NCBI GenBank assembly: GCA_025617745.1
Contig: CM046856.1
Location: 40,484,888-40,548,887 of the forward strand
DNA length: 64,000 nucleotides
Reading direction: 5' to 3'
Source: Heliocidaris erythrogramma
Taxonomy: Eukaryota > Echinodermata > Echinoidea > Camarodonta > Echinometridae
The notes under the pieces are model-generated. The model worked only from the letters and a program-made list of their open reading frames with translations, was not told where the DNA came from and ran no database searches. Made by a program: the position numbers and the translations under genes. Below are positions 16,784 through 45,357 of the stretch, in pieces (positions within the stretch are counted from its first letter, which is position 1; each line of letters opens with the position of its first letter).

Positions 16784-16815
16784 TTTGTAAAATCAGCACT
16801 GATTTTCTTATTTAC

Positions 16816-16955: not shown

Positions 16956-17038
16956 CACGCAACGGCCATCTTCCTCTTTTGCGAGCAAGCCCAAGTAGAA
17001 ACATGTTGCTTCCAAGGTGAGGGGAAGGAGGGAGGGTC

Positions 17039-17135
17039 ATAGGTAGGTATATAGATTTATATAGTAAATAAGAAAATCAGTGCTGATTTTACAAATTTAC
17101 TACAATAAATCAAATATACCTACCTATTATGCTAG
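17039..17135 (-). repeat. ICR of B2
   Basis: The left half is the complement of this copy's own 3' outer end (16784-16850). The right half is the complement of its 5' outer end (22478-22514). The two halves abut at acaaat/ttactac, giving a direct reading of the circle joint for family B. Confidence 0.92.
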
Positions 17136-17139
17136 ACCA

Positions 17140-18180: not shown

Positions 18181-19700
18181 TGTCTTGCAGATTCCCCAAC
18201 AGGGGCCAAGCAGTCAAATGAAGTGACTCCGGACTGTGGTGAAGAATCCCCGAGAGGGGTTGCAACACTAGATCCGTTCTTAACAGAAGAAGGAACGGTT
18301 GAGCCACCAAAAGGCTCATTAGCTCCGGAAACAAAGACCTCCTGGGCCAAAAAGGAGCTATCGCAAGCACCCGAGCCCGATCTTCCCTGATCTTCCGTGA
18401 GACTCGCGAAATCAGCTGGAAGGGAGGGAAGGCGAACCCTCGAAGATTCTCCCGAGAGAGAAAGTGTCCAGAGCCCACACTTCCTGGTCGCGAACACAGG
18501 AGCAAAGATTCGGAAGTTGGTGGTTCAGGACCGACACAAAAAGATCCACTTCCAGTGGATCCAGGCAACTGCGAATGCGGCAAAAGACCTCTGGATCTGG
18601 ATGGAGCATCCATTTTGATGGAAGACACCTGCCCCGGGACAGAAAATCTGCAATGAGGTTCTTCTGACCGGGGATGAAAGAGGCAACGGGTGTGATCGCC
18701 ATGCGACGACACCACCTCCACAGCTGGTGCTGCTAGGGCATTCAGGGAAGCAGAACGAGTGCCTCCCTGTCGATTGATATAAGCCGCCACAGTGACAGTG
18801 TCCGTGAGGATCAGAATGATATAGGGAAGAGTCCCAAGATGAGACCAATCCCCCGCGACCGTGCTGCCATTGCAATGTCCGCCCCACCCCAACCGAGAGG
18901 CGTCCGTCGAAAACCGAGATCGACGGAAGGGGGGTACGGAAGGACTTGCTTCGCGCGAGAAAGTCCTCGTTCGTCCAACGGGAGAGAAGAGACTTGATTC
19001 CTATTGGAACTGGAACCCGGACCAACAGTATCCTTGCCTTGTTTGTAAAACCTTAGGAGATGTCTCTGAAAAGGTCTCATAAGGAGCCGCCAAACCTCCA
19101 GAACATCTAGACTGGCAAGATAACCCAAAAACTGAAGCCACTGTCTAGCCTTGACCTTTCTGGCCAGAATGAGCTTGCGAGCCGCTGAGACAAAAAGTGA
19201 GAATCCTGTCTCGACTGGGCCGAGCCAACTGATTCCGAATGTCTCACACAGCCCCCAGAAAAACTGGGCTGCGAGTAGGAACTAACTCTGACTTTTCCCA
19301 ATTTATTAGGAAACCTAATTCTTGAGTAAGATTGACGAGCAAACGAGTCTCGTCCAACAAACGATCGTGCGACTCCACTAGAAGCCAGTCGTCCAGGTAG
19401 CAAAATAGCCGAAGACCGTGGCGCCTCAGTGAGGCTGCCAGCACGGTTACGACCTGAGTAAAAACCCGAAGGGCTGGGCGCAGCCCGAAGGGAAGAGCAC
19501 GAAAGTGAAAAGTCTCTGAGAGGAAGAAAAACCCTAGAAGATCGCGCGAAGCGCGATGAATGGGAACATGGAAATACACATCCTTGAGATTTATCAAGAC
19601 CGCGTATTCCTTCCTCTTGATCAACGGGAGAATGGAGGCGAGAGTCTCCATCCGAAAATATACTGAAGAAATAAATTTGTTTATTCTTTAAGCTCAGTAT
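18146..19700 (-). pseudogene. RT/RNase H remnant of B2
   Basis: The minus strand at 19244-19651 reads METLASILPLIKRKEYAVLI, LPFGLRPALRVFTQVVTVLA and CYLDDWLLVE, the RT palm with its YLDD catalytic motif. RNase H-type sequence (LGWGGHCNGSTVAGDWSHLG) and the FIPGQKNLIADFLSRGRCLP tail follow at 18400-18900. Broken in several places and overlapping the recombinase frame. Confidence 0.85.
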
Positions 19701-21937
19701 CCAACAAAGTTTTCCCGAGCGCTTGGGAATAACAAAAGTCGGAGAAAGGGAAAAAGACGGTCGGTCTCTTACCCTTTCTATAGCCCTCTTTTTCAACAGA
19801 GATGCGATCTCCGATGAGGCATGAGAACGAGCGAGGGCAGACATGTGAGGTGACCGAGTTCTTATAGCCCCTCCGGGGAGCGGGGCGGACAGATCTATGA
19901 AGAATCTGTCTCGTCCGACAAAGAGAACAAAAGCGTCCCCGGAGATGGCCTCCCAAGCGGGGAGAAAGGAACGAAGACGGCCACCTACCAAGTCGAGGAC
20001 AGAGGCCCGCGTCGACTTTCGTTTTTTTTTTCTGTTTTCGCGCATCGATTTCTCTTTGAAAAACCGTAGCAAATTGACCGCCAAAAAGCGAAGGACCCCG
20101 AGACGGAACATCCCTGAGAAGCGGTGCGATGTCCGACTCCTTAAACCCAAGGGCCATAAGAACCAAGACTCTGCGACGGTACGTGACCAAGGAGCAACTC
20201 CTCCACCCTAGACCCGAGGTCGGAGAGAAAACCTTGAAAAGCAGCCAAACGCATACCTGCTCTGACCTGGCTTTCAACACTACTCCAACGCTTATCCTCA
20301 GACTTAAAAGGGACAGAAGTTAGCGGATTGATCGCCCGCAAGCGACGATCCACCGCTAAAATCTCCGGAGAGAGAGACTTAGCTTTGAAAAAGCTGTCTT
20401 GGTCTTGGGAAACAAAGGCAAAGGCCTTACCATTAACTGCAACAGGGCGCTTAACTAGAAGCGCTGCTTCAATGCGGTCATACTCCAGCTTGAAATCCTC
20501 CGCAAGAGAAATACCCTCGGAGGAATCTTGCTGCCTGAACCAACACGAAGTCGAACCCTGCGCGCGGGCTGACTGAAAATCAGGGAGATATTTGGACAAC
20601 AAAGCAATCGCTTCTACCCCACAAAGGGCGAGACACTGAGGCTCTGCCTGCTCAAACGATTCGGAAACCGAAGCTTGAGAGGCCGCTTCTAAATCTGGTT
20701 CCGCCTGAATTGATTGGGACAAAGGACCGCCAACAAAGGACGAAACAGGCGGACCCTCCCATGGACCACCAAAAGTCTCCTCGCCCGGCGGAGCCCCAAG
20801 GGCCGCGGGAATAGGAGGCGCATGCGATCCCGTCTCAGACAATGAAGAATCAACCATAAAAGGCTGATTAGTCTCAACGTCAGACCCTAGAATAGGGACA
20901 GAAGCAGGGGGTTCAGTGCCCGGTACAAGGGACCAACCCTGACTCTGAGCAAACGTCCGCATCATGCTGAACATCTCAGATTGAGAGGATCTAGGCGGAT
21001 TAGTCAGGCCAGACGGGCAAGAGACAGGCAAAAACCTTGCCCCTTTTAGCCCCTTTCTTAGGGGTGGAGGGACGCTCACCTCCCTCAACGGGAGAAGTGC
21101 GCTGAGGTTATGAACCCAAAGTCTCGCACAAATTACCCATACTGGCTGAGCAAGAAGATGCAAGAGCCATGGGCTGGGTGCTGAAGGCACCCAGTGCGAG
21201 GGCGGACCGAGATGACCCGGTATTTGCCCACCGACTACTAAAGGCGTGTGAACTCGCTACTGAACCACTAGAGAGCAGCAATAGGAGAGCACTAGTAGTC
21301 GCGCACTCAGTGCGAGGGCGGACCGTGATGACCCGGTATTTGCCCACCGACTACTAAAGGCATGTGAACTCGCTATTGGACCACTAGAGAGCGGCAATAG
21401 GAGAGCACTAGTAGTCGCGCACTCAGGTGATAACACCTGTTGCTCCGTAGAGCGCCCATAATTGTTAGCTCGAGCCTCCCCATCAGCTGGCAATATAGAC
21501 AGCCCGGGCAGTACTCGTTCCCCCACTTGGCATCGGCCGGGGGCTAGGGTTTGAGAACCCAGACCAACATGGGCTGAGCCCGTGAGCTGCCCTGCAGTAG
21601 TGGCACGCGTCTCCGGATATAAGCGAGTCATCGCTACCGTGCGGGAAACAGACGTCCCCCCTTCTGGTCTTAACGACCGGGGGATTGGATTCGTGTTATC
21701 CAAACCACTAGAACCTGACGCCCCAAGTTCAACTAACGCCACCCGCCCCGAAGCCGCAAGCTCCGAGCCTGGCAAACTCTGCAGGGGAACACCACTGGGC
21801 AACTTACCTGCAGCCCTCCTCCCTCCCCCATGTACAGAAGTACTCGGGAGAGTTGTGGAGGGCCGAGTCGTCTTGCTAGACGACTCTTCGGAAGAAGCAG
21901 GTCTCTGCGACCTAGCTGCTTCTTCTTCCGAACTCAT
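19690..21937 (-). pseudogene. Gag-like remnant of B2
   Basis: The start is placed at 21937, giving MSSEEEAARSQRPASSEESS, followed by a long Ser/Pro/Gly-rich region. The more conserved C-terminal half (20141-21190) contains MMRTFAQSQGWSLVPG, SLSETGSHAPPIPAALGAPP, IALLSKYLPDFQSARAQ and VESQVRAGMRLAAFQGFLSD. The latter resembles the gag-like product of A2 in position and pattern. No zinc knuckle is visible. A short tandem duplication lies at 21195-21426. Broken. Confidence 0.7.
21195..21426 (-). repeat. ~115-bp tandem duplication in the gag region of B2
   Basis: Two consecutive units run from 'gcgagggcggacc' to 'agtcgcgcactcag' and differ at only a few positions, so the duplication is recent relative to the element. 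B1 and B3 have one unit here. Confidence 0.8.
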
Positions 21938-22375
21938 AACACTGCAATAAAACAGACAATAAAGTATACCAAAATATGAAATACTTTAACTGAGTGCAGG
22001 TAATAAAAATAAAATTTTGGAGATACGCACAAAAAATTTTCACAACAAAAAACCGTAACAACAAACACCGAACCCAAAGGCTCGGTGACAAACGGAAACA
22101 CCCGCAAACACATAGATATATCTACGTGGGGCTGACCGTGAAAGTGAAAAATAATTGCCAAGAAAGGAACAAAAAATCCCTTGCAATCGGCAAGTGTGAC
22201 TAATAAAACACAAGAGTACTATGATCTAGACGAATATAAGTACCAAAAAGTGCTTTAAAGATGCGAAAAAGCGCGCTGAAAAGATACAAAAAGACCTGAT
22301 TTCAGGAGCGCCGTGACTCGACATCCTAACTCGTCGGGGCGAGCAAGAAAGAGAAAGATGGCTGTTGCGTGTTGC

Positions 22376-22495
22376 CGCACGTGAGAAGGGGAACAATAGG
22401 ATTACGGGGGGTGCGCACAATATTGTGACTCATTTGTGTTAAAGTTCTCGAAGGGGTCGCGTAGTCAAGACTACTAGCATAATAGGTAGGTATAT
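22376..22495 (-). repeat. 5' inverted terminal repeat of B2
   Basis: Inverted counterpart of 16816-16955. It ends ctactagcataataggtagg and then tatatatgatttattgcac, which is the outer 5' end of the element. Confidence 0.9.
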
Positions 22496-22514
22496 ATGAT
22501 TTATTGCACTAAAT

Positions 22515-24249: not shown

Positions 24250-24295
24250 CAGTAAAATCCTACCTGATTTTATTATTTGCTAAATAAGTTGATGA

Positions 24296-24440
24296 ATCTA
24301 CCTATTATGCTAGTTGACACAAACTACGCCACCACCAAGAAACTTAAAAAGTCACATTCGCGCACACCCCACCCCGCTATACCGCCTTCCCATAGTCACC
24401 TGCGTGAGCGCACGCCTGCCATCTTCCTCTAACGAGCTGC
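24296..24440 (-). repeat. 3' inverted terminal repeat of D
   Basis: Inverted counterpart of 39105-39235. Landmarks are ctacctattatgctagttga, acaaactacgcca, caccccgctataccgccttc and catagtcacctgcgtgag. Confidence 0.88.
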
Positions 24441-24492
24441 CAGAGACGCTTAGGACATGTTGCTGGGCAAGGAGAGGGGACTGTGGGAGGGA

Positions 24493-24588
24493 CATAGGTA
24501 GATACATCAACTTATTTAGCAAATAATAAATCAGGTAGCATTTTACTGATTTACTACAATAAATTGATGTATCTACCTATTATGCTAG
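24493..24588 (-). repeat. ICR of D
   Basis: The first half is the complement of the D left outer end (24250-24305). The second half is the complement of the D right outer end (39225-39259), so the family-D circle joint can be read here. Confidence 0.88.
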
Positions 24589-24599
24589 ACCAGCACAGA

Positions 24600-25041
24600 T
24601 AAAAATCCAGGGTGGCATGTCCCAAGGGAAGGAGGCTAACGCAGGGTAACAACAGAAGCTGCCACCCTCAGTGACGAAGTCGCAAACCGCGCTTCTGCAG
24701 AAGGAATGTCCTTCAGATAAAAAGAATTGGGAGACTGCCAAAAGGCGGCCCTCAAAATGTCTTCTGGGGCAATACCCTGAAAAAGCGCCCAAGAAGAGCT
24801 AATGCTTCTGGTATCATGCGCTCTAGGCTTACTATCCGAGAGAAGGGCCTCAGGGACCAGCGGCCTGGATGGCCTCAACAATCCAACTAGAAATGGATTC
24901 TTTAGAAGCAGGAGAGAAAGGTTCGCGAGTAATAAGGAAAAGTTGCTCGTCCGAGCGGCAATCTTTGGTCTTGTCTAAGTACCATTTTAGCGCCCTCACC
25001 GGGCACCAAACCTTGTCCTCCATGTCCTCCATGTCCCCCAC
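24600..25041 (-). pseudogene. Tyrosine recombinase remnant of D
   Basis: The minus-strand translation shows the C-terminal catalytic end: DKVWCPVRALKWYLDKTKDC, EQLFLITREPFSPASKESIS, AHDTRSISSSWALFQGIAPE (His-x-x-Arg box) and SPNSFYLKDIPSAEARF (nucleophile Tyr region). Only this end of the gene is recognisable in D. Confidence 0.8.
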
Positions 25042-25679
25042 ACAGTTGCCCCTCTGACTGAGGAATTTCCCCCCAGAATCCCTAAGGACGAGAGGGCCAG
25101 CTCTCTCCTAGAGTTTGTGGCTTTGACGGCCGCAAGGGTCAGCTGTGACCACAGAGATCCCATTAAGGAAAGCAGGATCTCGTCCAAAATCAGCCCATCA
25201 GCCTCAGAAACTTCAAGTTCTTGAGACCTGATTTTGAGGCTGATTAGAGACCTCAGATAAGCCGTTGGAAGAACCCAACTGAATCTTGGGGACGGAAAGC
25301 AAAGCCCGAGCAAGGGGTTGCTTACCAACAAAATCCCAGGCTGTGACGCCTGTTCAGCTAAGTTTGCGTAGGCAGCCTTGAAATCATCAGAAAGGGGTAT
25401 TCCCGAAGAGGGAACCCCTTGACTGAAAAGAAAAGCCTGAGCCGAAACCGGCTCAGCCAGAGGGAAAGGCTCAGGTAAGTATTTCTCCAAAAGAGCCTGC
25501 ACGTCGACAGCCAACCAACCAGAGTGTTGGGGGACCGCACTGGCTTGAGGCTCAACAACATAGTCAGCATCAGGTCTGGCTGTGTGAGAAACCTGACCAC
25601 AGGGGGGCGGATGTATCCACGAACCAAAGGCCTCCTCACCGGGTGGAGCACCAAGTGCCGCCGGTATCAGAGTAGCTTT
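25042..25679 (-). pseudogene. Gag-like remnant of D
   Basis: Minus-strand blocks MAVDVQALLEKYLPEPFPLA, GVPSSGIPLSDDFKAAYANL and LELSSLGILG correspond to the conserved gag-like C-terminal region of families A and B (compare MAADAKALLEKYMPEIFPQV in A2). Family D is therefore a relative of A by gag. Broken. Confidence 0.65.
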
Positions 25680-25799
25680 TGCCTACCTATATACCTACCT
25701 ATTATGCTAGTCACTTTACTACGCTAACCCGTTTGAGTACTTAAAACGAATGAGTCACAATATTGTGCGCAACCATCGTAATCAAGAAAATTATAACTA

Positions 25800-25960
25800 A
25801 TTTTGTTATTTACTAGATAAATCTACCTATTTGCTAGTTTCCCAAACTATGCCGTCATTCGAGAAAAACTAAGTCTAAAACGCGCAGCCCCTACCCGTGC
25901 GCGCGTACTCCCCGTCCACCAATCCAATCGCGCCACCACCATACTCTTCCTCTTCCGAGC
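25800..25960 (-). repeat. 3' inverted terminal repeat of C1
   Basis: Inverted counterpart of 34665-34825. Landmarks are ctatttgctagtttcccaaa, tatgccgtcattcgagaaaa, aaaacgcgcagcccc and the gcgcgcgtactccccgtcca block. Confidence 0.88.
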
Positions 25961-26093
25961 AGTCAGAGACAGATCTAGGACATGATGTCAGACAAGGAGA
26001 GGGGCTGGAGGGAGGGACATAGGTAGATACATAGATTTATCTAGTAAATAACAAAATTAGTTAGAATAGCACGGATAAAAACCCGGGTGGCAT

Positions 26094-27080
26094 GTCCCAG
26101 GACGGGAGTAACTAACGCGGGGCAGACAGAGACGACGAAGCAGCTCTCAACCCAGAGGTTGCAAATCTAACCTCACCCAAAGGAACATCCTTAAGATAGA
26201 AGGATGTGAAGGAAGTAGGGGAACGCCAAAAGGCGGCCCTCAAATGTCTTCCAAAGGAAGACCCTGAAAAAGCGCCCAGGAGGTAGAAACACTCCTAGTA
26301 TCATGCGCTCTTGGAGGATTCTCAGACAGGAGAGCCTCCGAACCCGCAGCTTGGATAGCCTCGACAATCCAACGAGAGATAGTCTCCCGTGATGCTGGGG
26401 AATAAGGGTGACGGGAAATGAGAAAGAGCTGATCATCCTTACGAAAAACCTTAGTCCTATCCAAGTACCATTTGAGAGCCCTAACAGGGCACCAAGATTT
26501 ATCCTCCTTGACAGAAGAGAATTCTGACAGAGGACTCAAGAACACTTCGATTGAGCCAGAAGAATCCGTCTGATTCTTGGCAATAAACGAAGGTCGAGGG
26601 ACAAGACGTACACCTTGCCTTTCCCATCTGATATGCCCGGGCGCCGTAGAGAGATCCTGAACAGTGCTTCTCCTCTGCCCAGAAGCAATAGCGACGAGAA
26701 AGGCGGTCTTAATCGAGAGATGGTGTAAAGACGCTTTGCACAATGGCTCAAAGGGCGGTTTGGCCAAGGCGTCCAAAACCAAAGGAAGGCTCCACGCAGG
26801 AGTCAACTGGCGATTTGCTGGTCGTTTCAAAAGGAAGACCTCAGCAAATGAGTCAAGAAGGGAGAGTTTGAAACTCCCGAACCATCAAAAAAACCAAGGT
26901 GAACCGGAGCAATAGCGGACCGGTAACCACGAATGGTAGAGAGGGACCTGCCCTTATCGAAAAGGGCGATAAGGAAATCTGCAATAGCACCCACCGGGGC
27001 AGAACGGGAAGCAAATCCCTTCTCCCCACACCAAGCATGGAAGGCTTCTAATTTCGAGCTGAGGTAGAATCTCTTCTGCT
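26094..27080 (-). pseudogene. Tyrosine recombinase remnant of C1
   Basis: The minus strand reads LTPAWSLPLVLDALAKPPFE, SGQRRSTVQDLSTAPGHIRW, DKSWCPVRALKWYLDRTKVF, SRETISRWIVEAIQAAGSEA, AHDTRSVSTSWALFQGLPLE and a Tyr-containing SFYLKDVP-type end. The catalytic Arg, His-x-x-Arg and Tyr regions are all recognisable. It is one of the longer uninterrupted recombinase stretches in the window (26240-26830), but the gene as a whole is broken. Confidence 0.84.
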
Positions 27081-27085
27081 CTGGA

Positions 27086-28382
27086 CTATGAACTGGGAGG
27101 CTCTCTCTGAGAGTCCTGCCGTCCTCGCATCCTCCCCGATAGAGGCCAGGCGGTCAAATGTAGAGCCGCCGGGCGATGGTGGAGGATCCCCGACAGGGGC
27201 TGAGCTATGAGGTCTGCTCTCCGGCGAAGGGAGAGAGGCCGACCGTCCAGCAGAGACAGAAGAAGAGGAAACCAAGGTCTCCTCGGCCAGCAAGGTGCTA
27301 TGAGCAGAAACCACGCCTGATCCTCCTGAATCTTCCCCAGGACCTGAGGAATTAAGGAGATCGGCGGAAAGGCATAAGCCCGGAAGTTCTTCCCCTGAAG
27401 GGAGAACGCATCAAGGGCCCAAGCTTCCGGATCTCGCACTCGAGAGCAGTATCTCGGGAGGCAATGATTGAGAGCTGTCGCAAATAGGTCTATCTCCAGA
27501 GGGGAGCAGACTGAACTGAGGTAGTCGAAGACCTCTTGGTTCAGTGACCACTCGGAGGGGAGACACATGCCCCGGGGCAGAAGTTCTGCAATCAGATTGT
27601 CCCGCCCGGGAACATAGGAGGCGAACGAAATCACTCGGTGAGACCGACACCACTTCCAAAGTTTGGCGGTTAGATCGTTCAGGGTAGTGGAACGAGTCCC
27701 GCCTTGCCTGTTGAAAGCAGGCAGCCACAGTAGTGTTGTCCGTCAAAATCAGGACGGAGTGACCTACAATCATGTTCTCGAAAAGGCGGAGAGACATGAA
27801 GACCGAGGAGAAACTTGCCCTGAAGAAGGAACGACTCTTTCGACCAGGGGATAAGCAGGCGTTTGATTTCCTCGGGTAGAGGAATCCACACCTTGAGCGA
27901 GTCTACACTGGGCTTGAAAAACTTCAGGAGATGAAGTTGGAAAAGGCCTCATATGAAGCCGACAGTCTTTGAGGACATCTACAAGGCTCGATAAGTGGCC
28001 CAAGAACTGGAGCCATCGGCCTGCCCGAACTCGACGTAAGAGACGAAGAGATCGAGCCAGTAAGACAAATGCCTGAACTCTCTCCCGACTGGGGCGGGCA
28101 AGTTGGTTCACGATGTGTATTTCCGCACCCAGGTAATTGGGTCAGCCTGTAGGAGTCAACTCCGACTTGTCCCAGTTGACTATGAATCCTACTTCTTGCG
28201 TAGTACGGAGAAGTAGGTCCATGTGTGACTGAAGGACGGACACAGAGCTCGCCACCAGGAGCCAGTCGTCCAGATAAGTGGAAAGTCTCAGACCGCGATA
28301 CCTGAGGAAAGCGGCTAGGGCAGAGACAACTCGAGTAAAAACTCGAGGAGCCGGTTTCAGGCCGAAAGTTAAGGCCTTGAAC
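27086..28382 (-). pseudogene. RNase H and RT C-terminal remnant of C1
   Basis: The minus strand gives VPGRDNLIAELLPRGMCLPS (RNase H tail), HSVLILTDNTTVAA (RNase H DN-type block) and RPSRERVQAFVLLARSLRLL (linker between RT and RNase H). The upstream RT palm is partly visible to about 28380, where A2 is inserted. Broken. Confidence 0.78.
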
Positions 28383-28567
28383 CAGTAAAATCAGAATTGA
28401 TTTTATTATTTGCTAGATAAATCTATGTACCTACCTATTTGCTAGTCTTCCGACTACGCAAGCCATTCGCGTAATTAAAGTCACGACAGTGCATATACCC
28501 CCCTAGGATCACGCCTCAGACAAACTTTGACATGTTGCTAGGCAAGGAGTGGGGTAGGAGGGTGGGA

Positions 28568-28663
28568 CATAGGTAGGTACATAGATTTATCTAGCAAATA
28601 ATAAAATCAATTCTGATTTTACTGATTTACTACAATAAATCAATGTACCTACCTATTTGCTAG
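28568..28663 (-). repeat. ICR of A2
   Basis: The left half is the complement of the A2 3' outer end (28383-28440). The right half is the complement of the family-A 5' end seen at 11162-11195. The joint is read as ctgattttactga/tttactacaataaat. Confidence 0.9.
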
Positions 28664-28705
28664 ACCAGCACAGATTCAAATGGGGGGCATGTCCCAAGAG
28701 GAAGG

Positions 28706-29650
28706 TCAACAGGAACCCAAGGATGACGTTGCAGCTTGCAACGTCTTGTTAGAAAAAGACTCTTCAGACAGAACATCTTTTAAATAAAAAGATGTGAAGG
28801 ACGTGGAGGAGCGCCAGTAGGCTGCCCTCATAATGTCCACTAGGGGCACCCCTTGGAAAAGAGCCCAAGAGGCACTGATGCCCCTGGTATCGTGAGCACG
28901 GGGCTTCCCATCACTCAGTAGGGCCTCCGGCCCAGCTGCCTGGATCGCTTCACTATCCATCTAGAAATGGATTCTCTGGAAGCGGGGGAAAAGGGCTCTC
29001 GAGTGATGACAAAAAGCTGATCACTCTTACGAAGAGTCTTAGTCCTATCTAAATACCATTTCAAGGCCCTCACCGGACACCAGACCTTATCCTCCTGCAC
29101 TGAGGAATGGTCCGACAGCGGTCTAAGAAAAATCTCAACTGGTCCAGAGGAAGCAGTCTGATTTTTGGCAATAAAGGAGGGCTTGGGTATAAGTCGCACA
29201 CCATGGTTTTCCCAACGGATGTTGACCGTTAAATGGTGAAAGGACGCTTTACCCAAAGGTTCAAAAGGTGGCTTCGCAAGCACGTCAAGGACCTTCGGTA
29301 GACTCCAAGAAGGAGTCAGGCTACGAGTTGATGGACGCTGCAAGAAGAAGGAGCGAGTCAACCTAGCCAAAAGAGGGGAGTTGGAGACTCCCGAACCATC
29401 AACAAAACCAACGTGGACGGCGGCAATAGCCGAACGATAGCCACGTATGGTTGAAATCGATCTACCCTTATCGAAAAGGGAGATCAAAAAATCGGCAATA
29501 ACACCAATAGGGGCTTCACGTGGCGAGACACCCTGATTCTCGCACCAAGAAAAGAAGGCCCCTAGACGAGAGTTGTAGAGATCTCTAGTGGAGTCTCTAC
29601 GGCTTCTCATTACAAACTGGGAGGCTCTTTCGGAGAGCCCCGAGTTTCTG
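28706..29650 (-). pseudogene. Tyrosine recombinase remnant of A2
   Basis: Order seen on the minus strand: RSRRDSTRDLYNSRLGAFFS (core-binding domain), KGRSISTIRGYRSAIAAVHV, LTPSWSLPKVLDVLAKPPFE, DKVWCPVRALKWYLDRTKTL, AHDTRGISASWALFQGVPLV (His-x-x-Arg) and SSTSFTSFYLKDVLSEESF (nucleophile Tyr). A long frame (28915-30816) carries its N-terminal part and overlaps RT/RNase H. Broken. Confidence 0.86.
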
Positions 29651-31641
29651 GCGTCTTCCCCAACAATGGCCAGGCAGTCAAGTGGAGGACCGCTGGGCGT
29701 TGATGAACAATCCCTGAGAGGGGTTGAATTATCAAAAAGGGGAAACGGCTGGCCGGCCAGGAGACTCAGCAGGTCTGGAAACCAATGTCTCGCTGGCCAA
29801 TGTGGGGCTATCAACAAGAGCCAAGCCCTGTTCTCCTTGACCTTCCTCAAGACCCGAGGGATCAGAGGAATGGGGGGAAAAGCGTACCCCCGGATAGCTC
29901 CCCAATGGAGGGAAAAGGCATCCATCGCCCACGCCTCCTGATCCCGAACCCACGAGCAATACCTCGGGAGTCGGTGATTGAGGGTGGAGGCGAACAGATC
30001 GATCTCCAGAGGACCCCACACCTCTTGGAGAAGAGCAAATACCTCCGGATGAAGAGTCCACTCTGACGGGAGGCATTTGCCCCGCGACAGAAAATCCGCG
30101 ATCAGATTTTCCTGACCGGGAATGTAGGAGGCTACCGGAATAATGTTCATAGACCGGCACCACCTCCACAACTGGGCAGCTAAGGTGTTCAGAGAGGAAG
30201 ACCGAGTGCCGCCTTGGCGATATAGGCAGCTACTGTGACATTGTCCGTAAGAACGAGTACAGTGCGACCAACAAGACCGGGCCTGAAATGATGAAGAGAC
30301 AGGCTGACCGCCATCATTTCCAAAACATTGATATGGGGCATAACTCTCAAGTGAGACCAGTCCCCTGAAATCATCTCGCCCCGGCAATGACCGCCCCAAC
30401 CGAGAAGGGAGGCGTCTGTCGCCAGAGAAACTGACGGAAGAGGTGTACAGAGAGGCTTGCCTTGGGCAAGAAACGAACTGTTCGACCAGGGGGCGAGAAG
30501 GAGCTTGATATCTCTTGGGAGTGGAATCCACCCCAAAGGAGAATCTTTGCCCGGTCTGTAAAACTTGAGGAGGTGCCTCTGAAAGGGCCTCATCAACAGC
30601 CTGCAGTCTGGTAAGACGTCGACTAGACTGGCCAGATAGCCCAGGAATTGAAGCCATTGTCTGGCTCTGACCCTGGGGGCTACTCGCAATGACCGTGCGG
30701 TCATGGTGATAGTCCGAATTCTGTCCCGACTGGGGCGGGCAAGCTGATTCGGGATATCTATCTCCGCCCCCAAGTACACCGGGGTACGTGTGGGAGATAA
30801 TTCCGATTTTTTCCAAGTTTATCAGAAAGCCTAAGTCTTGCGTTAGTCGCAGTAAAAGTCATAACTGATCCAACAGGAGGGACTCTGAGCTTGCAACTAG
30901 GAGCCAATCGTCTAGATAGACGAATAATCGGAGGCCGCGATTCCGTAGAAACGCGGCCAGGGCCGACACTATTCGGGTAAAGACTCGAGGGGCCGGCCTC
31001 AGCCCAAAGGGCAGGGCACGAAATCGAAACGTTTCGCCCTGGAACGCGAATCCCAGCAAATTTCTCGACAGAGAGTGAATGGGAATGTGAAAGTACGCGT
31101 CTTTGAGATCGAGGGAGATCGCAAGGTCGTCCCGCTTGATCAAGGGCAGAATAGATGCCAAGGTCTCCATGCGAAAATGCACTGGAGGTATAAACCTGTT
31201 GATTCTTTTCATGTTTAGAATCATACGTAAACTTCCCGAGCGCTTGGGAATGACAAAAATTGGGGAGAGACAGAGATGAGGATGATCTCTCGCCCTTTCT
31301 ACAGCGCCCTTTCCCAGCAGCGTGGTGATCTCTGAGGAGATGTGCTGCTGGAAAAGGGCTGACATTGGAGGCGGGCGGATTCTGATGGCGCCGTTTGGAA
31401 TCGGCTTTATCAGATCTATGTAAAAGCCGTCGCGCACGACGGATAGTACGAAGGCGTCGCCGGAGATTGCCTCCCAAACTGGGAGGAATCTCTGGAGCCG
31501 CCCGCCTACACTGTCCACAAGCACTCGGGGTAAGGTATCAAAAGGCCGACTTGGGCCTGACCGGGCCCTTGGCGGCGGTCTTACGCCCCCCTCTTCCTCT
31601 CGCCGAGCCTCTACCACGGTTGCCCAGGGTAGGGGTCTCAA
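29600..31641 (-). pseudogene. RT/RNase H remnant of A2
   Basis: The minus strand at 30859-31641 shows the RT palm in order: LSPIFVIPKRSGSLRMILNM, FRMETLASILPLIKRDDLAI, SLDLKDAYFHIPIHS, FRALPFGLRPAPRVFT and LFVYLDDWLLVA. The connection and RNase H lie at 30189-30779 (LGAEIDIPNQLARPSRDRIR, SLATDASLLGWGGH, VLVLTDNVTVAAYI). LDLKDAYF and YLDDW are the catalytic aspartate blocks typical of DIRS RT. Broken. Confidence 0.87.
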
Positions 31642-32443
31642 CCCGAGGGATAGTCACAGTCACTCGACGATTTGAGCGGTTAGCACCTGTCGAGACCGAC
31701 TTAGACTTCGGAAAGGACCGAGCAGGCTGAGTGGGCAAGAATTGTCTGGCCATCTCTTTTGCCTGTTTGCGACCCTCTATCTCTTTGAGGAAGACCTTGT
31801 TAAACTGGCCCCCAAAGAGTATGGGATGAGAGGAAGGGATACCCCGCAAGAGAGGCGGGATGTCTTTCTCTAGCACTCCCAGTGTGGAGAGCGCCAGCTT
31901 GCGGCGTTGATGCGTAATGTCAATCGCTGCTGATGAGAGCTGAGACCACTGAAGTCCAGCTAACAAAAGCAGGAGTTCATCCAACAAATTGGAGTCCCCC
32001 TCGGTCACATTCAGTTCAACTGATCTGGCCCGCAGGCATAACAGTGAACCCAGGTACGCCGAAAGCCTTAAGCCCGACCTGACTTTGGTTTCAAAGTTCA
32101 CTAGGGGCTTCTCGGCGGATCTATAGGACTGAGACTTGAAATTGATATTCAAACGTTGTCCCATACCCATAATTTCCTGGGATAAACCCTTGGCTGAAAA
32201 GAAGCCCTGGGTATCATCCCGATAGAAAGAGAAGGCACTACCAAAGGGGCGTCGGGTAGCCCGACCCGCACCGGCGAGTGCCTCCCTATCCCCATACTCC
32301 TGTTTGAAGTCCTCTGTAAGAGGAATACCAGGAGACGGGCCATGCTGTCTGAATAACAGCGATGGCTGATCACTGTCCGACTGGACTTGGGGGAAAATTT
32401 CTGGCATATACTTCTCTAACAGGGCCTTGGCATCTGCCGCCAT
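31538..32443 (-). pseudogene. Gag-like frame of A2 (301 residues)
   Basis: A single open stretch begins MAADAKALLEKYMPEIFPQV. It contains SAFSFYRDDTQGFFSAKGLS, YLGSLLCLRARSVELNVTEG and LDELLLLLAGLQWSQLSSAA, and ends in a basic, Gly/Arg-rich tail (RGRGSARGRGG) suited to RNA binding. It overlaps the start of the RT frame in another frame. Compared with A1 the gene would begin further upstream, so this is the C-terminal part. It is a remnant of a broken element. Confidence 0.72.
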
Positions 32444-32769
32444 AGCCTGACAAGGCTGGGGGTCTTAGCCGGCCTGAGATTCTGAAACAGACGGGGTAGA
32501 AACCTGCGAGACAGAATCAATTTCGGGAGAAGTAGTCCGGTGGGGAAAATCCCATGGGGGTGGATATGCCCACGGACCAGTGACAGACTCCTCCCCTGGT
32601 CGGGGGTCGGCAAGACCCAGTAACATCATTAGCTGACCGCTTAGCGGTCTTACCAGTTAATGCCCCCTCCAGGCTTCCGACGGTGGTCGGGGGTCAAGGG
32701 GACCCGGTAATACTAGCTACCGCCCCCCCCCCCCAACTGCAGACGCGGTGGTCGTGAGTTGGAGGGAGC

Positions 32770-34225
32770 TTCAAGCAGCTCTTGAATCTCGGTGGAGATG
32801 TGCTCTGCGGCGGATGGCTCCGTGTGGGAGGGGCTCTGCGAATCTTAGGCAGAAGCCTCCTCGCACGATGGAGAGCACGAAAAGTCGTCGGTAATTTCTT
32901 CCCAAGCGGGAAGAAAGTACTTAAGACGGCCACCAACCCTCTCCTCCAACGCTCGGGGCGCACCCTAAAAGTCGCGCGAATCGCGGGCCGAACCACGGCC
33001 CTGACCGCGACTTCGAGGTCTTCTCCTACCTCGAGGAGAAGGCTCCGCCCTGGCCCCCTGTGTGCGTGGGGCACTGGGCTGAACTTGCGGTGCACGAGAG
33101 GCTTGATAGCTGGAAGTGCCACCGCGCCTAGGAGGCGGAAAAATAGCCTGGGCCTGGGCCGAGGACTTGAGGCGTTTCAGAAGTTCCGTCGCCTGCTTGC
33201 GTGAATCAACCTAAGTTGAATCACATCAGACACCTTTACGTCCAAAGAGGTGTTGGCTGGAGTGCGGGACACTGGCCAGGAGGGCAGGTATGTCCGCATC
33301 CGCAATGCCCAGAGAGGAAAGAGCAAGTTTCCTCCTAGCATTAGTGGCTATTGCTGTCGAACAGACAGTTCTGACCACAACGAGCCTGTCAAGGACAAGA
33401 GGGCTTCGTCTAGAAACAGGATGTCCGAGTCGGACATCTCGAGTTCCGAGGGACGGACCCTACGAAGGATTGAAAGAGGCTGTGAGGCGAAGTCATTGTA
33501 GACTCGCTTAAAGTTCTCTGTAAGAGGGATGCCAGGAGGGATGCCAACTCAGAAGAAGTAGTCGCCCCTTGGGGGCTAACCTTCTTCTCCTTGGCCCCCC
33601 TGACACATGAGGTGAACACACAGTCGATGTCAAGGGGAGAGAGTCCGCCCCACCTGATGACTGGGCAGTACTCTGGTGCTTACGTGTCTTGGGCAGGTGA
33701 GCATGTTTATCGCTCCCTTTACCCTTAGAAACGGGCACCGCCTCCGTAGTAGGCCCTGAGGGGGGGTACTTTTGGAAGATCACAACTCTTTTTACTCTTT
33801 CCCGCCTTGCTTGTGTTAGAAGCGTGCGGAGAGACAAAAAGAGCCGACCCCTGAGCGAACATACCTATGGCTAGGGAGCGAGGAATGATGCTCGAGCGAG
33901 ACGAACTGTGGGTAGGGATAACACCCACAGTTTTATCGGTGAGAGGTATTGGCCTAAGGCACTCACTCCCACCGTTATACAAGTCTCTATCTTCGAGAGA
34001 GGTATTGGCCGAGTCCCAGCACTCACTCTCTCGGTTCATCCCGCATGAGTTGGTCGTCAAAACAGACGACAAACTCATAGCGGGGCGAGCCGTACACGAG
34101 GCTCCGGGGAAGATAACATTGGTGCGAGATGAAATCTCGCAGCCAACCTTCCAAGGCTAGGCGAGTCCCCTTATAAGTATTAAAATACTGGGGAACGCCA
34201 GCCCTAGACGGAGACTTCGACATGG
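32770..34225 (-). pseudogene. Gag-like remnant of C1
   Basis: The start is placed at an ATG near 34223, giving MSKSPSRAGVPQYFNTYKGT. Further recognisable blocks are NGGSECLRPIPLTDKTVGVI, RSSIIPRSLAIGMFAQGSAL and FVSPHASNTSKAGKSKKS, all shared with C2 (52823-53194). The function is assumed from its position, since similarity to the gag of families A and B is weak. Broken. Confidence 0.6.
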
Positions 34226-34664
34226 CTGAAAATAAAGACAAGCAAACAAATATAGAAAACTATATATGGTAATAAGATTATTATTATTACAAACAATATA
34301 GATCTATATAAAAAGTAACAACCAACTCACAATACGGAGTGGGAATAAACTCCTATTACGGAGTACACAATGTTTTGATAAGACCGCTTGTCTAAGCGCG
34401 TTGAATCAACCACCCACAGACACGGGGGAAGAGCCCGACACAGTGTACTAGTACACCGTCTGTGAATAAAGCCCCGTAAGGGGAAGGAAAAACGGTAAAA
34501 TAATTTGATTAATTTACCGTGAAGGAGGTTGACTCAGGAAAAATCCGATACACCAAAATGTGTGTGAAAACTTGGTGAACGGGATTTTTAATGCGAATAG
34601 CAACCAAAAACGCTTTTGGAGGTAAAAATCTCGCAATTTAGGTTAAGACTTAGCTTCATAGATG

Positions 34665-34845
34665 TCACTTCTCTGACGGGCGAGAAAGGAAGAGGAAGAG
34701 TATGGCGGTGGCGCGATTGGATTGGTGGACGGGGAGTACGCGCGCGCGGGCAGGGGCTGCGCGTTTTAGACTTAGTTTTTCTCGAATGACGGCATAGTTT
34801 GGGAAACTAGCAAATAGGTAGATACATCGATTTATTGCTATAAAT
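34665..34845 (-). repeat. 5' inverted terminal repeat and outer end of C1
   Basis: Inverted counterpart of the 3' ITR (25800-25960). It ends gaaactagcaaataggtaga, then tcgatttattgctataaat, directly joined to B4 sequence. Confidence 0.88.
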
Positions 34846-34963
34846 CCTATTGTTCTCCCCTTCGCCACTCACCCGCAGCAATACGCAACGGCCACCTTCC
34901 TCTTTTGCGAGCAACCCCAAGTAGAAAAACATGTTGCTTGCAAGGCTAGGGGAAGGAGGGAGG

Positions 34964-35056
34964 GTAGGTATATAGATTTATATAGTAAATAAGAAAATCA
35001 ATGCTGATTTTACAAATTTACTGCAATAAATCATATAAACCTACCTATTATGCTAG
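34964..35056 (-). repeat. ICR of B4
   Basis: Same arrangement as in B1 and B2: the complement of the family-B 3' end is followed by the complement of its 5' end (ctgcaataaatcatataaac). Confidence 0.82.
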
Positions 35057-35059
35057 ACT

Positions 35060-35640
35060 AGCACCCATTCAAAAACCGGGTGGCATGTTTTAAGAGAAGG
35101 GAACAGGATTACAAAGAAGACACAGCGGCCTTCAAGGTAGCTGACGCCAAAATTGCCTCTCCTGCAGGGACATGAAGGAATTGGGCGAACGCCAATAGGC
35201 AGCCTTCAAAATACCTTGAAACAGAGCCCAAGAGGTGCTGACACTACGATTGTCATGAGCATGGCGCTTACTATCTGACAAGAGCTTCTGGGCTGGCGGC
35301 CCGAATAGCTTGACAGTACATCTAGAAATGGAATCAAGAGAAGCAGGAGAAAAGGGCTCTCGAGTTATCAGGAACAACTGATCATCTTTGCGACGTGTCT
35401 TAGTCTTGAGGGCTCTAACGGGACACCAAACCTTGTCCTCACGCACTGACGAAAAGTCAGATAGCGGACAAAGAAAAATCTCAACAGGGCCAGAAGAAGC
35501 CGTCCGATTCTTGGCAATGAAAGAAGCTTTACAAAACAAACTAACACCAATGGCGCTTTACACCATTGGAAAAAGGCTTAAAGACAGGAATTAAAAAGTC
35601 AGCGGCCCTTTCAGAGAAACCTAACTGTCTTGCACACTTA
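35060..35640 (-). pseudogene. Tyrosine recombinase remnant of B4
   Basis: Minus-strand fragments are KVWCPVRALKTKTRRKDDQL, ITREPFSPASLDSISR, AHDNRSVSTSWALFQGI and YWRSPNSFMSLQE. The gene is reduced compared with B1 and B2 and clearly decayed. Confidence 0.75.
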
Positions 35641-37410
35641 GCGGAAGAAGGAACGGTTGAGCCACCAGAAGGCTCACTAACTAAGGGAACCAAATCCTCC
35701 TGGGCCAAAAAGGAGCTATTACAAGCACCCGAGCCCGATCTTCCCTGATCTTCTCCAAGACTCCCAGGATTAGCTGGAAGGGAGGAAAGGCAAACCTCCC
35801 GGACGCGAACACGGGAGCAGTACTTCGGAACCTGGTGGTTCAGAGCTGACGCGAACAGGTCTAACTCCAGTGGGCCCCAGCAACTGTAAATTCGGGAAAA
35901 GACCTCTGGATGAAGCTTCCATTCTGATGGAAGACACCTGCCCCGGGATAGATAATCCGCAATGAGGTTTTCCTGACCGGGGATCAAAGAGGCAATGGGC
36001 ATAATCGCCATGTGACACCACCTCCACAGCTGTGCTGCTAATGCATTCATGGTGGCAGAACGAGTGCCACCCTGCTGATTGATATAAGCCGCCACTGTGA
36101 CATTGTCCGTGAGGATCAGAACTGAACGAATGAGAAGTCGACTTCTGAAGTGTAGCAGGGTTAAGAAGACTGCCATGAATTCCAGGATATTGATATGGGG
36201 TAGAGTCCCAAGATGAGACCAATCCCCTGAAAACGTGCTGCCGTTGCAATGTCCGCCCCACCCCAGCCTAAAGGCATCCATCGAAACTGAGATCGACGGA
36301 AGGGGGTATGGAAGGACATGCCTCGCCTGAGAAACTCCACGTTCGTGCAACGGGAGAGAAGGGATTTGATTTCTACTGGTACTGTAATCCAGACCAAGAG
36401 AGAATCCTTGCACGGTTTGTAAAACCTGAGGAGATGCCTCTGAAAAGGCCTCATAAGGGGCCGGCAATCCTCTAGAACATCGACTAGACTAGCTAGAAAA
36501 CCTAAGAACTGAAGCCATTGTCTGGCCCTGACCCTTCTGGCCAGAATGAGCTTGCGAGCCGCTGAGACAATAGTTAGAATCCTGTCTCGACTGGGCCGAG
36601 CTAACTGATTCCGAATGTCTAACACAGCCCCCAGATAAACCGGGCTGCGAGTAGGAACAAACTCTGACTTTTCCCAATTTATGAGGAAACCTAAGTCTTG
36701 AGTAACTTTGACGAGCAAACGTGCCTCGTCTAACAGACGTACGTGCGACTCCGCTAAGAGAAGCCAGTCGTCCAGATAGCAAAACTGCCGAAAGCCGCGG
36801 CGCCTCAGCGAGGCTGCCAAAACGGCTACTACCTGCGTGAACACCCGAGGGGCTGTACGCAGCTCGAAGGCCGTGGCGCCTCAGCGAGGCTGCCAAAACG
36901 GCTACTACCTGCGTGAACACCCGAGGGGAAGAGCGCGAAAGCGAAAAGTCTCTGAAAGGAAGGAAAAACCCCAGAAGATCGCGCAATGAATAGAGATATG
37001 GAAATACGCATCTTTGAGATGTATCAAGATTGCGTAATCCTTCCTCTTGATCAACGGGAGAATTGAGGCGAGAGTTTCCATCCGAAAATGCACCGGAGGA
37101 ATGAATTTGTTTAATATTCTTTTCAAATTCAGTATCAAACAAAGTTTTCCCGAGCGCTTGGGAATAATGAAGATCGGAGAAAGAGAAAGAGACGGACGGT
37201 CTCTCACCCTTTCTATAGCCCTTTTGTTCAGAGATTTGATCTCCATTGAAGCGTGACAATGAGCCAGGGCAGACATGGGAGGTGAACGAGATCTTATAGC
37301 CCCTCCGGGGAGCGAGGCAGATAGATCTATGAAGAATCCGTCTCGCACTATGGAGAGCACGAAGGCGTCCCCGGAGACGGCCTCCCAAGCCGGGAGAAAA
37401 GAACAAAGTC
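35541..37410 (-). pseudogene. RT/RNase H remnant of B4
   Basis: Minus-strand blocks are FRMETLASILPLIKRKDYAI (RT), FCYLDDWLLLAESHVRLLDE (YLDD motif), RPSRDRILTIVSAARKLILA (linker), FRLGWGGHCNGSTFSGDWSH (RNase H) and IPGQENLIADYLSRGRCLPS (tail). Broken in many places. Confidence 0.82.
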
Positions 37411-38250
37411 GGCCACCTACCATATCGGACTGAACAAGCGCACAGGGAAGACCGTCAAAGACTATGAGTATGACTGAAACTCGGCAGGCAAGCCCCCAGA
37501 AACCCAACTTTGTTGTCCCGAAGTGGGAGCAACAGGCCTCCGACAGGCAGGGGCCCGCGTCGGCTTAAATTGATTGGTCCACGAACAAATGCCGAAACAG
37601 GCGGACACTCCCATGAACCGCTCGCTATAGGTCTCCTCACCTGGTGGAGCCCCGAGGGCTGCGGGTATAGGAGACGCGAGAGACCCCGTCTCAGACAATG
37701 AGGAATCAAGCACGTGCTTGATTAGTCTTAATGTCAGACCCGGAAAGGGATAGAAGCAGGGGCTGTGGTATCTGGTAAGAGGGACCAACCCTGTCGTTGG
37801 GCAAAAACCTGCATCATGCTGAGCATCTCAGATTAAGAAGGGTAAGAGGCAGGCAAAGCCTTGCTTCTTTTACCTTTTTAGGCTTCTTTTTAGCTGGCTC
37901 AACAGGAGCCGAAGCTGTGACCCGCTTCTTAGGGCGTCTGACAGACTTCGGGCGGTTCTCCGAAACAACTTCGGAAACACGAACCAAACCCACAACGGAG
38001 GGATGCCAACTGCCCGGGTAGTACTCGCTCCCCCATTTGGCATCGGCCGGGGGCTAGGGTATGTGAACCCAGACCAACATGGGCGGTGCCCGTGGCACGC
38101 GTCTCCTCCTGCGGATTTATGCGAGTTATCGCTACCATGCAGGAAATAGACGTCCCCCCTCTGGTCTGAGCGACCGGGGGCTTAGATTTGTGATATCCCA
38201 ACCTCTAGAGCTTGAAGCCACGGGCTTCGGAGTTGACGTCCCAAGCTCAA
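37411..38250 (-). pseudogene. Gag-like remnant of B4
   Basis: Short minus-strand blocks such as LDSSLSETGSLASPIPAALG and HVGLGSHTLAPGRCQMGERV match family-B gag. The region is much reduced and ends at the junction with D. Confidence 0.6.
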
Positions 38251-39259
38251 GGAGCTTGTTGTCGGGCATCCGACAGCTCCCCCTGTGAGGATGTGAGTTT
38301 CAGAGGTCGGAAGACCGGCGAAACTTACGCCCTGCGTTCGGGGGCCTGCGGTCGTTAAACCGCCGACCCCCTCATCGGGACCAAAAGACCCGACTGAAGT
38401 TGTAATGCTGAACCCGGCTAGCAAACAAATTGCCTGACCCAGTGCGAGACCCCATGCACGCAGGGGTCCCTTACTCACCTCCCGAAGAAAAGTCTGGGAG
38501 GATAGTTCCTGAACGAGTCGACGACCTCACGCCCGTCCCGATAGAAAGTGTACTGCGTCTCAAAGAAGAAGCCATAACACTGGCTCCTGCTGTGTCAGCC
38601 TGCGTACTGGCGGGGGCCGTACGGGTAACCGGAGTCGAGGAAAAACTCATACCGAAGCTATAGAGTCGATGTGAGACAAAAACCTGAAAATATAAAACAA
38701 AAACAAAACAAGCGCGCAGGAGTGAAAAATAAGGAGCTCACAGTATTCCTAAATAAGGGAATACAAGGACAACTAAGTGAGAAAGGGGAACCAACATCCC
38801 AAGGGCTGTGTACGAAAAAAAGAAATCTCCAACAACCCAAGCATGGCCACGTGCCAAGCCTGGATCGCCCACCCAGCAAACGAGCGAAAAGCTATGTCAC
38901 CGGGAGGAACGAAGGAGAAGAAAAGAGAGACAGAAAAATAACTGTCTGTCTTAAAACAACGTGACCAGAAAATCTGTACCACAAATAAAATAAGCATTAA
39001 ATGTGGACGATAAAAATTATTAAAGCAGATCAGAAAGCGCAAAAAATAGAGACAAATCTCAATTTTGGGCGCAGTGACTTATCTGACAATGTTCACTCAT
39101 CGGCAGCGAGAATGAAAAGAGGAAGATGGCGGGCGGGCGGGTGTGCACTCACGCAGGTGACTATGGGAAGGCGGTATAGCGGGGTGGGGCATGCGCGAAT
39201 GTGGCGTAGTTTGGGTCAACTAGCATAATAGGTAGATACATCAATTTATTGTAGTAAAT
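38250..39259 (-). mobile_element. 5' part of D: gag start, leader and ITR
   Basis: A gag-like start (MSFSSTPVTRTAPASTQADT) lies at about 38651 on the minus strand. It is followed upstream by a leader rich in A and the 5' ITR (39105-39235), which mirrors 24296-24440. The outer end is gtagtaaat. GC-rich 'ccgaccccctc' units at 38330-38400 recall the repeats in family-A gag. Confidence 0.7.
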
Positions 39260-42647: not shown

Positions 42648-42930
42648 CAGTAAAATCAAAACTGATTTTATTATTTGCTAGATAAATCTATGTACCTACC
42701 TGTTTTGCTAGTCTTCCGACTACGCAAGCCATTCGAGTAATTTAAAGTCACGACAGTGCATAAACCCCCCCCCCCCCCCCCAGGATCCCGCCTTCCTCTC
42801 TGCACCCATGACACGCGCACACAATCATCCTCTTTACGAGTAACCTCAGACAAACTTTGACATGTTGCTAGGCAAGGATTGGGCAAGGAGTGGGGTAGGA
42901 GTGGGGTAGGAGTGGGGTAGGAGGGTGGGA

Positions 42931-43021
42931 CATAGGTAGGTACATAGATTTATCTAGCAAATAATAAAATCAGTTCTGATTTTACTGATTTACCACAATA
43001 AATCAATGTACCTTTTGCTAG
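42931..43021 (-). repeat. ICR of A3
   Basis: Complement of the A3 3' outer end followed by the complement of the family-A 5' end, as in A2 and A4. Confidence 0.85.
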
Positions 43022-43059
43022 ACCAGCACAAATTCAACTGGGGGGGCATGTCCCAAGAG

Positions 43060-44050
43060 GAAGGTCAACAGGATCCCAAGGATGACGTTGCAGCTTGCAA
43101 CGTCTTGTTAGAAAAAAACTTCAACTGTCAGAACATCTTTTAAATAAAAAGATGTGAAGGACGTGGAGGATAGCCAGTAGGCTGCCCTCATAATGTCCAC
43201 TACGGGCACTCCTTGGAAAAGAGCCCAAGAGGCACTGAAGCCCCTGGTATCGTTTCACTAGGGCCTCCGGCCCAGCTGCCTGGATCGCCTCGAATATCCA
43301 TCTAGAAATGGATTCTCTGGAAGCGGAGGAAAAAGGGCTCTCGAGTGATGACAAAAAGCTGATAACTCCTATGAAGAGTCTTAGTCCTATCTAAATACCA
43401 TTTCAGGGCGCTCACCGGACACCAGACCTTATCCTCCTGCACTGAGGAATGGTCCGACAGTGGTCTAAGAAAAATCTCAACTGGTCCAGAGGAAGCAGTC
43501 TGATTTTGGGCAATAAAGGAGGGCTTGGGTATAAGTCACACACCATGTGATACACAGAGCATGAAGAGTACTCCTCCTCTCTGCAGAAGCAATAGCAACT
43601 AAAAACAGCGTCTTGACAGTTAAATGGTGAAGGGACGCTTTACCCAACGGTTCAAACGGTGGCTTCGCAAGCTCGTCAAGGACCTTGGGTAGACTCCAGG
43701 ATGGAGTCAGGCTACGAGTTGATGGACACTGCAAAAGAAGGAGTGAGTCAACCTGGCCAAAAGAGGGGAGTTGCAGACTCCCGGACCATCAGCAAAACCA
43801 ACGTGGATGGCGGCAATAGCCGAACGATAGCCACGTATGGTAGAAATCAATCTACCCTTATCGAAAAGGGAGATAAAAAAAATCAGCAATAACACCAATG
43901 GGGGCTTCACACGGCGAGACCCTGATTCTCGCACCAAGAAAAGAAGGCCCAGAAACAAGAGTTGTAGAGATCTCTAGTGAAGTCTCTACGGCTTCTCATC
44001 ACAAACTGGGAGGCCCTCTCGGAGAGCCCCGAGTTTCTGGCGTCTTCCCC
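43060..44050 (-). pseudogene. Tyrosine recombinase remnant of A3
   Basis: Minus-strand fragments include SASRESISRWIFEAIQAAGP, LTPSWSLPKVLDELAKPPFE, SAERRSTLHALCIT, KGRLISTIRGYRSAIAAIHV and SQFVMRSRRDFTRDLYNS. Decayed more than in A2 and A4. Confidence 0.8.
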
Positions 44051-45250: not shown

Positions 45251-45357
45251 CTCACTGTCCACAAGCACTCGGGGTAAGATATCAAAAGGCCGACTTGGGC
45301 CTGGCGACCTGGGATAAACCCTTGGCAGAAAAGAAGCCCTGGGTATCCTCCGGACAG

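Follow-up and report, generated by a model that had tools for sequence, protein, structure and literature searches.

Nested DIRS1-like retrotransposons of four families within 64 kb of Heliocidaris erythrogramma DNA: an order of copies, not of families

A stretch of 64,000 nucleotides of Heliocidaris erythrogramma DNA (contig CM046856.1, positions 40,484,888 to 40,548,887; hereafter the window) carries eleven DIRS-type copies belonging to four families (A1-A4, B1-B4, C1, C2 and D), which cover 48,983 of the 64,000 bases. At 24250-39259 one copy of each family takes part in a four-layer stack, which had been described in an earlier note on this DNA and which we reproduced by self-BLAST and junction alignments. 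In the notation host>guest, where A1>B1 means that B1 lies within A1, the stack reads D>B4>C1>A2. The nest is real, and the order of its copies follows from their position. It places four insertions in relative time but does not do so for the families: family A hosts B (A1>B1), B hosts C (B4>C1 and B3>C2) and C hosts A (C1>A2). The locus very probably arose by successive integrations of DIRS1-like elements, carried by their recombinase into AA(T) sites, with overlapping activity periods of families A, B and C.

Junctions within the nest

Copy boundaries were recomputed from self-BLAST together with pairwise and junction alignments, and the coverage figure given above derives from these coordinates (Table 1). 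All copies lie on the minus strand, so that in window coordinates the 3' end of a copy is on its left. The recomputed boundaries of B2, C1, C2 and D, including those of the two reference copies B2 and C2, fell within 1 nt of the earlier figures. The inner three layers of the nest rest on exact boundaries, the outermost on enclosure between the inverted terminal repeats (ITRs) of D.

The insertion of C1 into the terminal repeat of B4 can be placed to the base at either end (CGTAAT^element^CCTATTG, carets marking the junctions), and both B2 and B1 read CGTAATCCTATTG at this site. The split of the family-B 3' ITR was likewise found as previously described; B4 breaks off after 25782 and continues from 34846, with a single C residue at 25783 that is assignable to either element. 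In a joined-flank test, 70 nt from each side of an insertion were fused and aligned to an uninterrupted relative. With C1 removed, the alignment of the B4 flanks ran across the join, with 119 identical columns of 139 against B2 and 115 of 138 against B1. The right piece of B4 matches B2 from 16919 onwards (92/103), and its last matches lie at 38219 (against B2, at about 21722) and 38221 (against B3).

With regard to the insertion of A2 into C1, the left boundary was exact (GAAC^CAGTAAAATC, where C2 has GAACC), but the right boundary was not. A2 ends at a position equivalent to about 10104 in A1, while A1 itself runs on to 11195; C1 resumes at 32774, corresponding to C2 52025 (27/33), and its segment 33554-34845 corresponds to C2 52665-53884. 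This right junction is most simply explained by a deletion after the insertion. The placement of B4 within D held in so far as B4 is enclosed between the ITRs of D, whereas neither B4/D junction is exact, both being degraded; we infer the insertion of B4 into D from this enclosure.

Cyclic nesting and the order of the families

C2 lies within B3, again with exact boundaries on both sides (GGACAAC^...^AAAGC), where B2 has GGACAACAAAGC. With C2 removed, the B3 flanks rebuilt B2 (128 of 140 columns) with one gap, at base 49039, which was excluded by the cut used; against B1 the same flanks aligned over 114 of 140 nt, of which 98 were identical. B1 lies within A1 (1-11195), the 3' end of B being located at 3348/3349 and the right side being degraded; B1 is without its 5' ITR (about 240 nt), and 9660-9928 matches neither the tail of B2 nor A2. 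A3 is probably the outer host of B3, their junction being degraded. Satellite units of about 140 bp occur to the left of A3 (41712-42647), and they are matched by the stretch directly to the right of B3 (42/45 over 55709-55753), so that a satellite array seems to have received A3, B3 and C2 as a single compound insertion.

The earlier note had read the nest as an order of family activity, from D as the oldest to A as the youngest. This is contradicted by B1 inside A1 and C2 inside B3, which form a cycle with C1>A2. With such a cycle, A, B and C cannot have strictly succeeded one another, and their periods of activity therefore overlapped. A true succession of families, D first, then B, then C and A last, thus appears very unlikely. 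It would agree with the order of the copies in the D>B4>C1>A2 nest and with the median end branches, which are 0.204 for D, 0.077 for B4, 0.020-0.028 for C1 and 0.007-0.012 for A2. Pairwise Kimura two-parameter (K2P) distances also fit in that they are smallest among the A copies (0.031-0.067) and largest between B4 and the other B copies (0.127-0.145). The distances are 0.073-0.119 among B1-B3 and 0.066 between C1 and C2 (3748 sites). However, such a succession is at odds with the nests A1>B1 and, probably, A3>B3, and with guest branches that are longer than those of their hosts at A1>B1 and B3>C2. Moreover, D is represented by one copy in the window, and its long branch, with no second D copy beside it, is uninformative on age.

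The claim that divergence should follow the nesting order was borne out in part for the copies in the window. The host had the longer end branch in five of seven bootstrap comparisons, namely C1>A2 (99/100 with 1.2 kb and 80/100 with 430 bp), B4>C1 (99/100), D>B4 (100/100) and A3>B3 (100/100). The other two were reversed, with a longer host branch in 0/100 (A1>B1) and 1/100 (B3>C2) bootstraps, and these two are among the best-supported nests. Since a guest cannot have inserted earlier than its host, end branches in this small sample reflect unsampled relatives besides insertion age, and they are not a reliable clock here. Three other comparisons were put aside. In the standard DIRS model one ITR is not copied from the other, and ITR-to-ITR divergence was therefore rejected as a clock; the comparison of the 3' end with the internal complementary region (ICR) was too short (about 60 nt) for ranking copies; and the 430-bp tree, in which the end branch of C2 is 0.161 although C1 and C2 differ by 0.066, probably owing to indels, was not used for C2.

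Identity of the elements

The ends of the copies settle the identity of families A-D as DIRS1-like retrotransposons, with ITRs, a right extension and an ICR that spells the circle junction. ITR pairs could be aligned in B2, C1, C2 and D, and the 3' end pairs with an ICR located about 190-290 nt inward in A2, A3, A4, B1, B2, C2 and D, and partially in C1. The circle junction spelled by the ICR is GTAAAT joined to CAGTAAAAT in A2, A3 and D (GTAAAC in A4), GTAAAT joined to TTGTAAAATC in B1 and B2, and GTAAAT joined to TAAGAAAATT in C2, whose own terminus is CAAG. The trinucleotide at the circle junction is thus AAT in A2, A3, B1, B2, C2 and D, and AAC in A4. The ICR of C1 (26018-26080) is without the circle-junction half that C2 has kept. 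A PAT/Ngaro-type tyrosine recombinase (YR) retrotransposon was considered and rejected, the termini being inverted repeats; self-BLAST revealed no split direct repeats of at least 50 bp joining the two ends of a copy, shorter ones not having been looked for.

The same set of features, ITRs, right extension, ICR and a 3-nt circular junction, is given for DIRS1-like elements in the available part of Piednoel et al. 2011 (PMC3266345), which also describes a "divergent ITR" part. According to that part of the source, 23 of 28 DIRS1-like elements start and end with NTT, AAT is the circular junction in 13 of the 28 rows of its Table 3, and the mean length is 5160 bp, as compared to 5.7 kb for B2 and 4.8 kb for C2. 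The present locus differs from the elements covered there in that four families occur side by side and mutually nested within 64 kb.

At the protein level, 30 Pfam scans of open reading frames (ORFs) from the DIRS copies were run at E limits of 0.001, 1 and 10, one C2 ORF being scanned twice with slightly different extents. RVT_1 was found above its cut-off in A4 (E=1.4e-10), which accounted for both of the 2 scans out of 30 with this domain. A4 also gave a weak match to Phage_integrase (E=0.0026; 18.0 bits versus a curated cut-off of 27.1). The reverse-transcriptase motif YLDD is present in nine of the eleven copies and was not found in A3 or D. An HDTR..W..Y-type stretch, which we take to be the catalytic motif of the tyrosine recombinase, occurs in A2, A4, B1, B2 and D, that is in 5 of 11 copies and in 5 of the 15 matches of a loose pattern. 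The 21 scans of ORFs from families B, C and D (one ORF spanning the C2/B3 boundary) gave no match in 19 cases and weak matches to unrelated families in two; the DIRS nature of these families therefore rests on alignment to family A and on the element ends. A PDB sequence search with an A2 ORF yielded a single weak match that we attribute to chance (E=0.75). Relatives of the A4 protein comprising the reverse transcriptase (RT) and the methyltransferase (MT)-like part were sought in two collections: viral_contigs gave no pattern match, and none of the 23 pattern matches in genome_contigs was a relative by tblastn.

Target sites and integration

The C1 and C2 insertions, the only two sites that are exact on both sides, show neither duplication nor loss of target sequence. 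The targets, as seen in the uninterrupted relatives, are AAT for C1, AAC for C2, AAC for A2 and AAT for B1; with an AA frequency of 0.096, four AA targets have a descriptive probability of 8.6e-5 (p^4). The trinucleotides flanking the 3' ends of A2, A3, A4, B1, B2, C1, C2 and D are AAC, AAG, AAT, AAT, GAT, AAT, AAC and GAG, respectively. Thus, the middle position is A in 8/8 (p=5e-5) and the first in 6/8 (p=0.0096), both values again being descriptive. All five preserved 5' ends (A1, B2, C1, C2 and D), in turn, terminate in AAAT, the 5'-end trinucleotide being AAT in 5/5. This suggests that the 3' junction keeps the bases of the target and the 5' junction the AAT of the element, which is what recombination of an AAT-junction circle with a target containing AA would produce.

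Following the published model, we infer a circular intermediate and the action of the recombinase. Element RNA would be reverse-transcribed and closed into a circle via the ICR. The tyrosine recombinase would then insert the circle by recombination at a genomic site that has the AA(T) of the circle junction in common with it, and the target would not be duplicated. In the nest, B4 would have entered D near the start of its gag, followed by C1 into the 3' ITR of B4 and A2 into C1. Later deletions would have trimmed both D/B4 junctions, the right A2/C1 junction and the coding core of D.

Several observations weigh against this account. No D/B4 junction is an element end, and an alignment through the join was obtained at two of the four insertions tested, the flanks of A2/C1 (70/140 nt) and B1/A1 (73/140 nt) aligning on the left side only. 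The A1 flank at B1 carries one A more than the A2 reference, two of the eight 3'-flank trinucleotides are GAT and GAG, and the first base of C2 matches neither its ICR nor its target. It should be underlined that the data from which the AA rule emerged are also those that test it, which makes the p-values descriptive. Among the proteins, RNase H is represented by a weak match (RT_RNaseH, E=0.26 in A4), and the only methyltransferase-related match, likewise weak, was to PCIF1_WW, which presumably resembles the DIRS methyltransferase; it appeared in 3 of the 30 ORF scans and stayed under its cut-off even at the best E of 0.00049.

Repeated copies that resemble each other can mislead an assembly, and part of the nest could in principle be an assembly chimera, or a rearrangement between separate elements, rather than an insertion. 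The junctions that are not element ends (D/B4 on both sides, A2/C1 and B1/A1 on the right, and A3/B3) would be in line with this. In contrast, element termini abut mid-element host sequence at C1/B4 and C2/B3 on both sides and at the 3' ends of A2 and B1, and we therefore regard a chimera or rearrangement as highly improbable.

Common orientation of the copies

The single orientation claimed earlier was evident from tblastn, where 16 DIRS ORFs gave 317 matches (E<=1e-3), none of them on the plus strand. A coin flip would place all eleven copies on one strand with a probability of 0.001, a figure to be read in the light of the copies being possibly non-independent and the window having been picked. 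On the strand shown, DIRS DNA contains 4723 AA versus 2252 TT, and an AA-directed recombinase would consequently insert in the orientation of the host about 2:1. At this AA content, the co-orientation of five nests has a p-value of 0.14. Composition may thus explain part of the common orientation, leaving unexplained why copies that border non-DIRS DNA lie on the same strand.

One could also imagine that the elements home to DIRS DNA with their orientation set by the target core, so that nesting and common strand both result from targeted insertion. In favour of this, a further DIRS copy encloses five of the eleven copies (six if B3 is counted), all eleven share one strand, and the AA excess favours same-strand insertion. 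The available parts of PMC5633606 and PMC5006619 report self-targeting by DIRS-1, and that of PMC5941688 reports it for zebrafish DIRS1. Nevertheless, DIRS sequence makes up such a share of the window that about half of the insertions falling in it is no excess, the co-orientation of the five nests has the p-value given above, and copies bordering non-DIRS DNA, where AA/TT is 1750/1517, are on the same strand too. We consider homing to DIRS DNA rather unlikely. A shared landing zone, which seems quite unlikely to us, would have circles of any family directed by the recombinase to AA(T/C) cores in whichever DIRS copy, producing co-oriented and reciprocal nests (A in C, B in A, C in B); DIRS sense strands being A-poor relative to T, the core would be mostly on one strand, and the direction of the core would set the strand asymmetry of the cluster. 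In a narrow literature search covering few subscription papers, nothing was found on a bias of nested DIRS copies towards one strand.

Comparison with known DIRS clusters

Nesting of DIRS in DIRS has long been described (Cappello et al. 1984, as cited in the available parts of PMC5633606 and PMC5006619), and the window is a good example of it, not a new kind. The Dictyostelium DIRS-1 clusters, as far as the same two sources are available, also consist of DIRS copies inserted in DIRS copies; there, however, DIRS-1 inserts into DIRS-1 without apparent sequence preference (PMC5633606), whereas here different families nest mutually and the four targets are AAT or AAC. In nototheniid fish, the accessible portions of PMC5941688 and PMC6387122 report several DIRS1 families per genome and hot spots, as here, and state the absence of target duplication, but the hot spots were seen by fluorescence in situ hybridisation at chromosome scale, not at base resolution. 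What is worth keeping from the present locus is the cyclic nesting across families together with base-exact empty sites. The base-exact nests allow filled sites to be compared with their empty counterparts for an integration pathway that has been little tested, and the cyclic nesting warns against reading a single nest as the history of families.

Structure of D and other features of the window

The two ITRs of D, which ends at 24250 and 39259, align over 133 nt with 8 mismatches and 65 gap columns (inverted match of 39118-39259 to 24275-24430), and its 3' end pairs with the ICR (24250-24305 with 24494-24548). Coding remnants were located by tblastn at 24856-25020 (match to the YR of family A) and 25074-25667 (matches to gag-region ORFs of A and B). 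D is a deletion derivative in which the YR C-terminus directly abuts gag, beside a short tandem repeat (25020-25075); compared with A2, about 2.8 kb would have been deleted here. The right part of D is weakly supported; it has no close copy within the window, and 38222-38980 matched nothing it was compared with. The leader at about 38909-39117 was given to D because it is contiguous with the 5' ITR of D. Its best match is the A1 leader (136/198; score 32.5, shuffles 13.8 ± 1.5), followed by those of B3 (25.5; 13.4 ± 1.4) and B2 (24.5; 13.6 ± 1.9), and it does not resemble the C2 leader (14.5; 13.8 ± 1.4). Just to the right of D, 39396-39655 holds nearly two copies of a 143-bp unit.

Table 1. 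Coordinates of the nest layers and of the other DIRS copies referred to in the text (window positions; RH, RNase H)
Feature	Position	Strand	Remarks
D, 3' part	24250..25686	-	3' end, ITR, ICR, YR C-terminus, gag; RT/RH/MT and most of YR absent
B4, left (3') piece	25687..25782	-	3' ITR, without about 40 nt of 3' end; 84 identities in 100 columns vs B2 16825-16922
C1, left (3') piece	25783..28382	-	8-nt gap in 3' end; boundary GTAAT^CAAGAAAATT
A2	28383..~32771	-	3' end, ITR, ICR, YR, MT-like, RT, gag; about 1.09 kb missing at 5' end
C1, right (5') piece	~32772..34845	-	about 190 bp of C1 missing at left edge; 5' ITR ends AAAT
B4, right piece	34846..38221	-	resumes in 3' ITR; about 790 nt of 5' end missing
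D, 5' part	38222..39259	-	leader, then 5' ITR with AAAT end; position is the sole basis for assigning 38222-38980
B1, inserted in A1	3349..9659	-	A1 flanks 1-3348 and ~9929-11195; counter-example to family order
B2, uninterrupted	16785..22514	-	empty-site reference
C2, inserted in B3	49040..53884	-	B3 parts 45356-49039 and 53885-55712; both boundaries exact; second B>C nest
A3, internally deleted	42648..45362	-	joined to B3 at 45356-45362 via degraded junction
A4	60038..64000	-	runs off window; best RT match (61366-62871)

In the window no tRNA was found, nor any Rfam match at the gathering threshold, and the ten ORFs outside the DIRS copies gave nothing above cut-off, one weak match to Nairovirus_Gn (E=0.03) being taken as chance. 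B2 contains a 116-bp tandem duplication (21187-21426) and B3 a G+C-rich 26-bp tandem repeat (54855-54935). Outside the DIRS copies, 57559-58121 and 58655-59228 form an inverted pair with 86.7% identity over 579 columns, and shorter inverted repeats are present in AT-rich non-DIRS DNA at 14182-14527 and 15390-16114.

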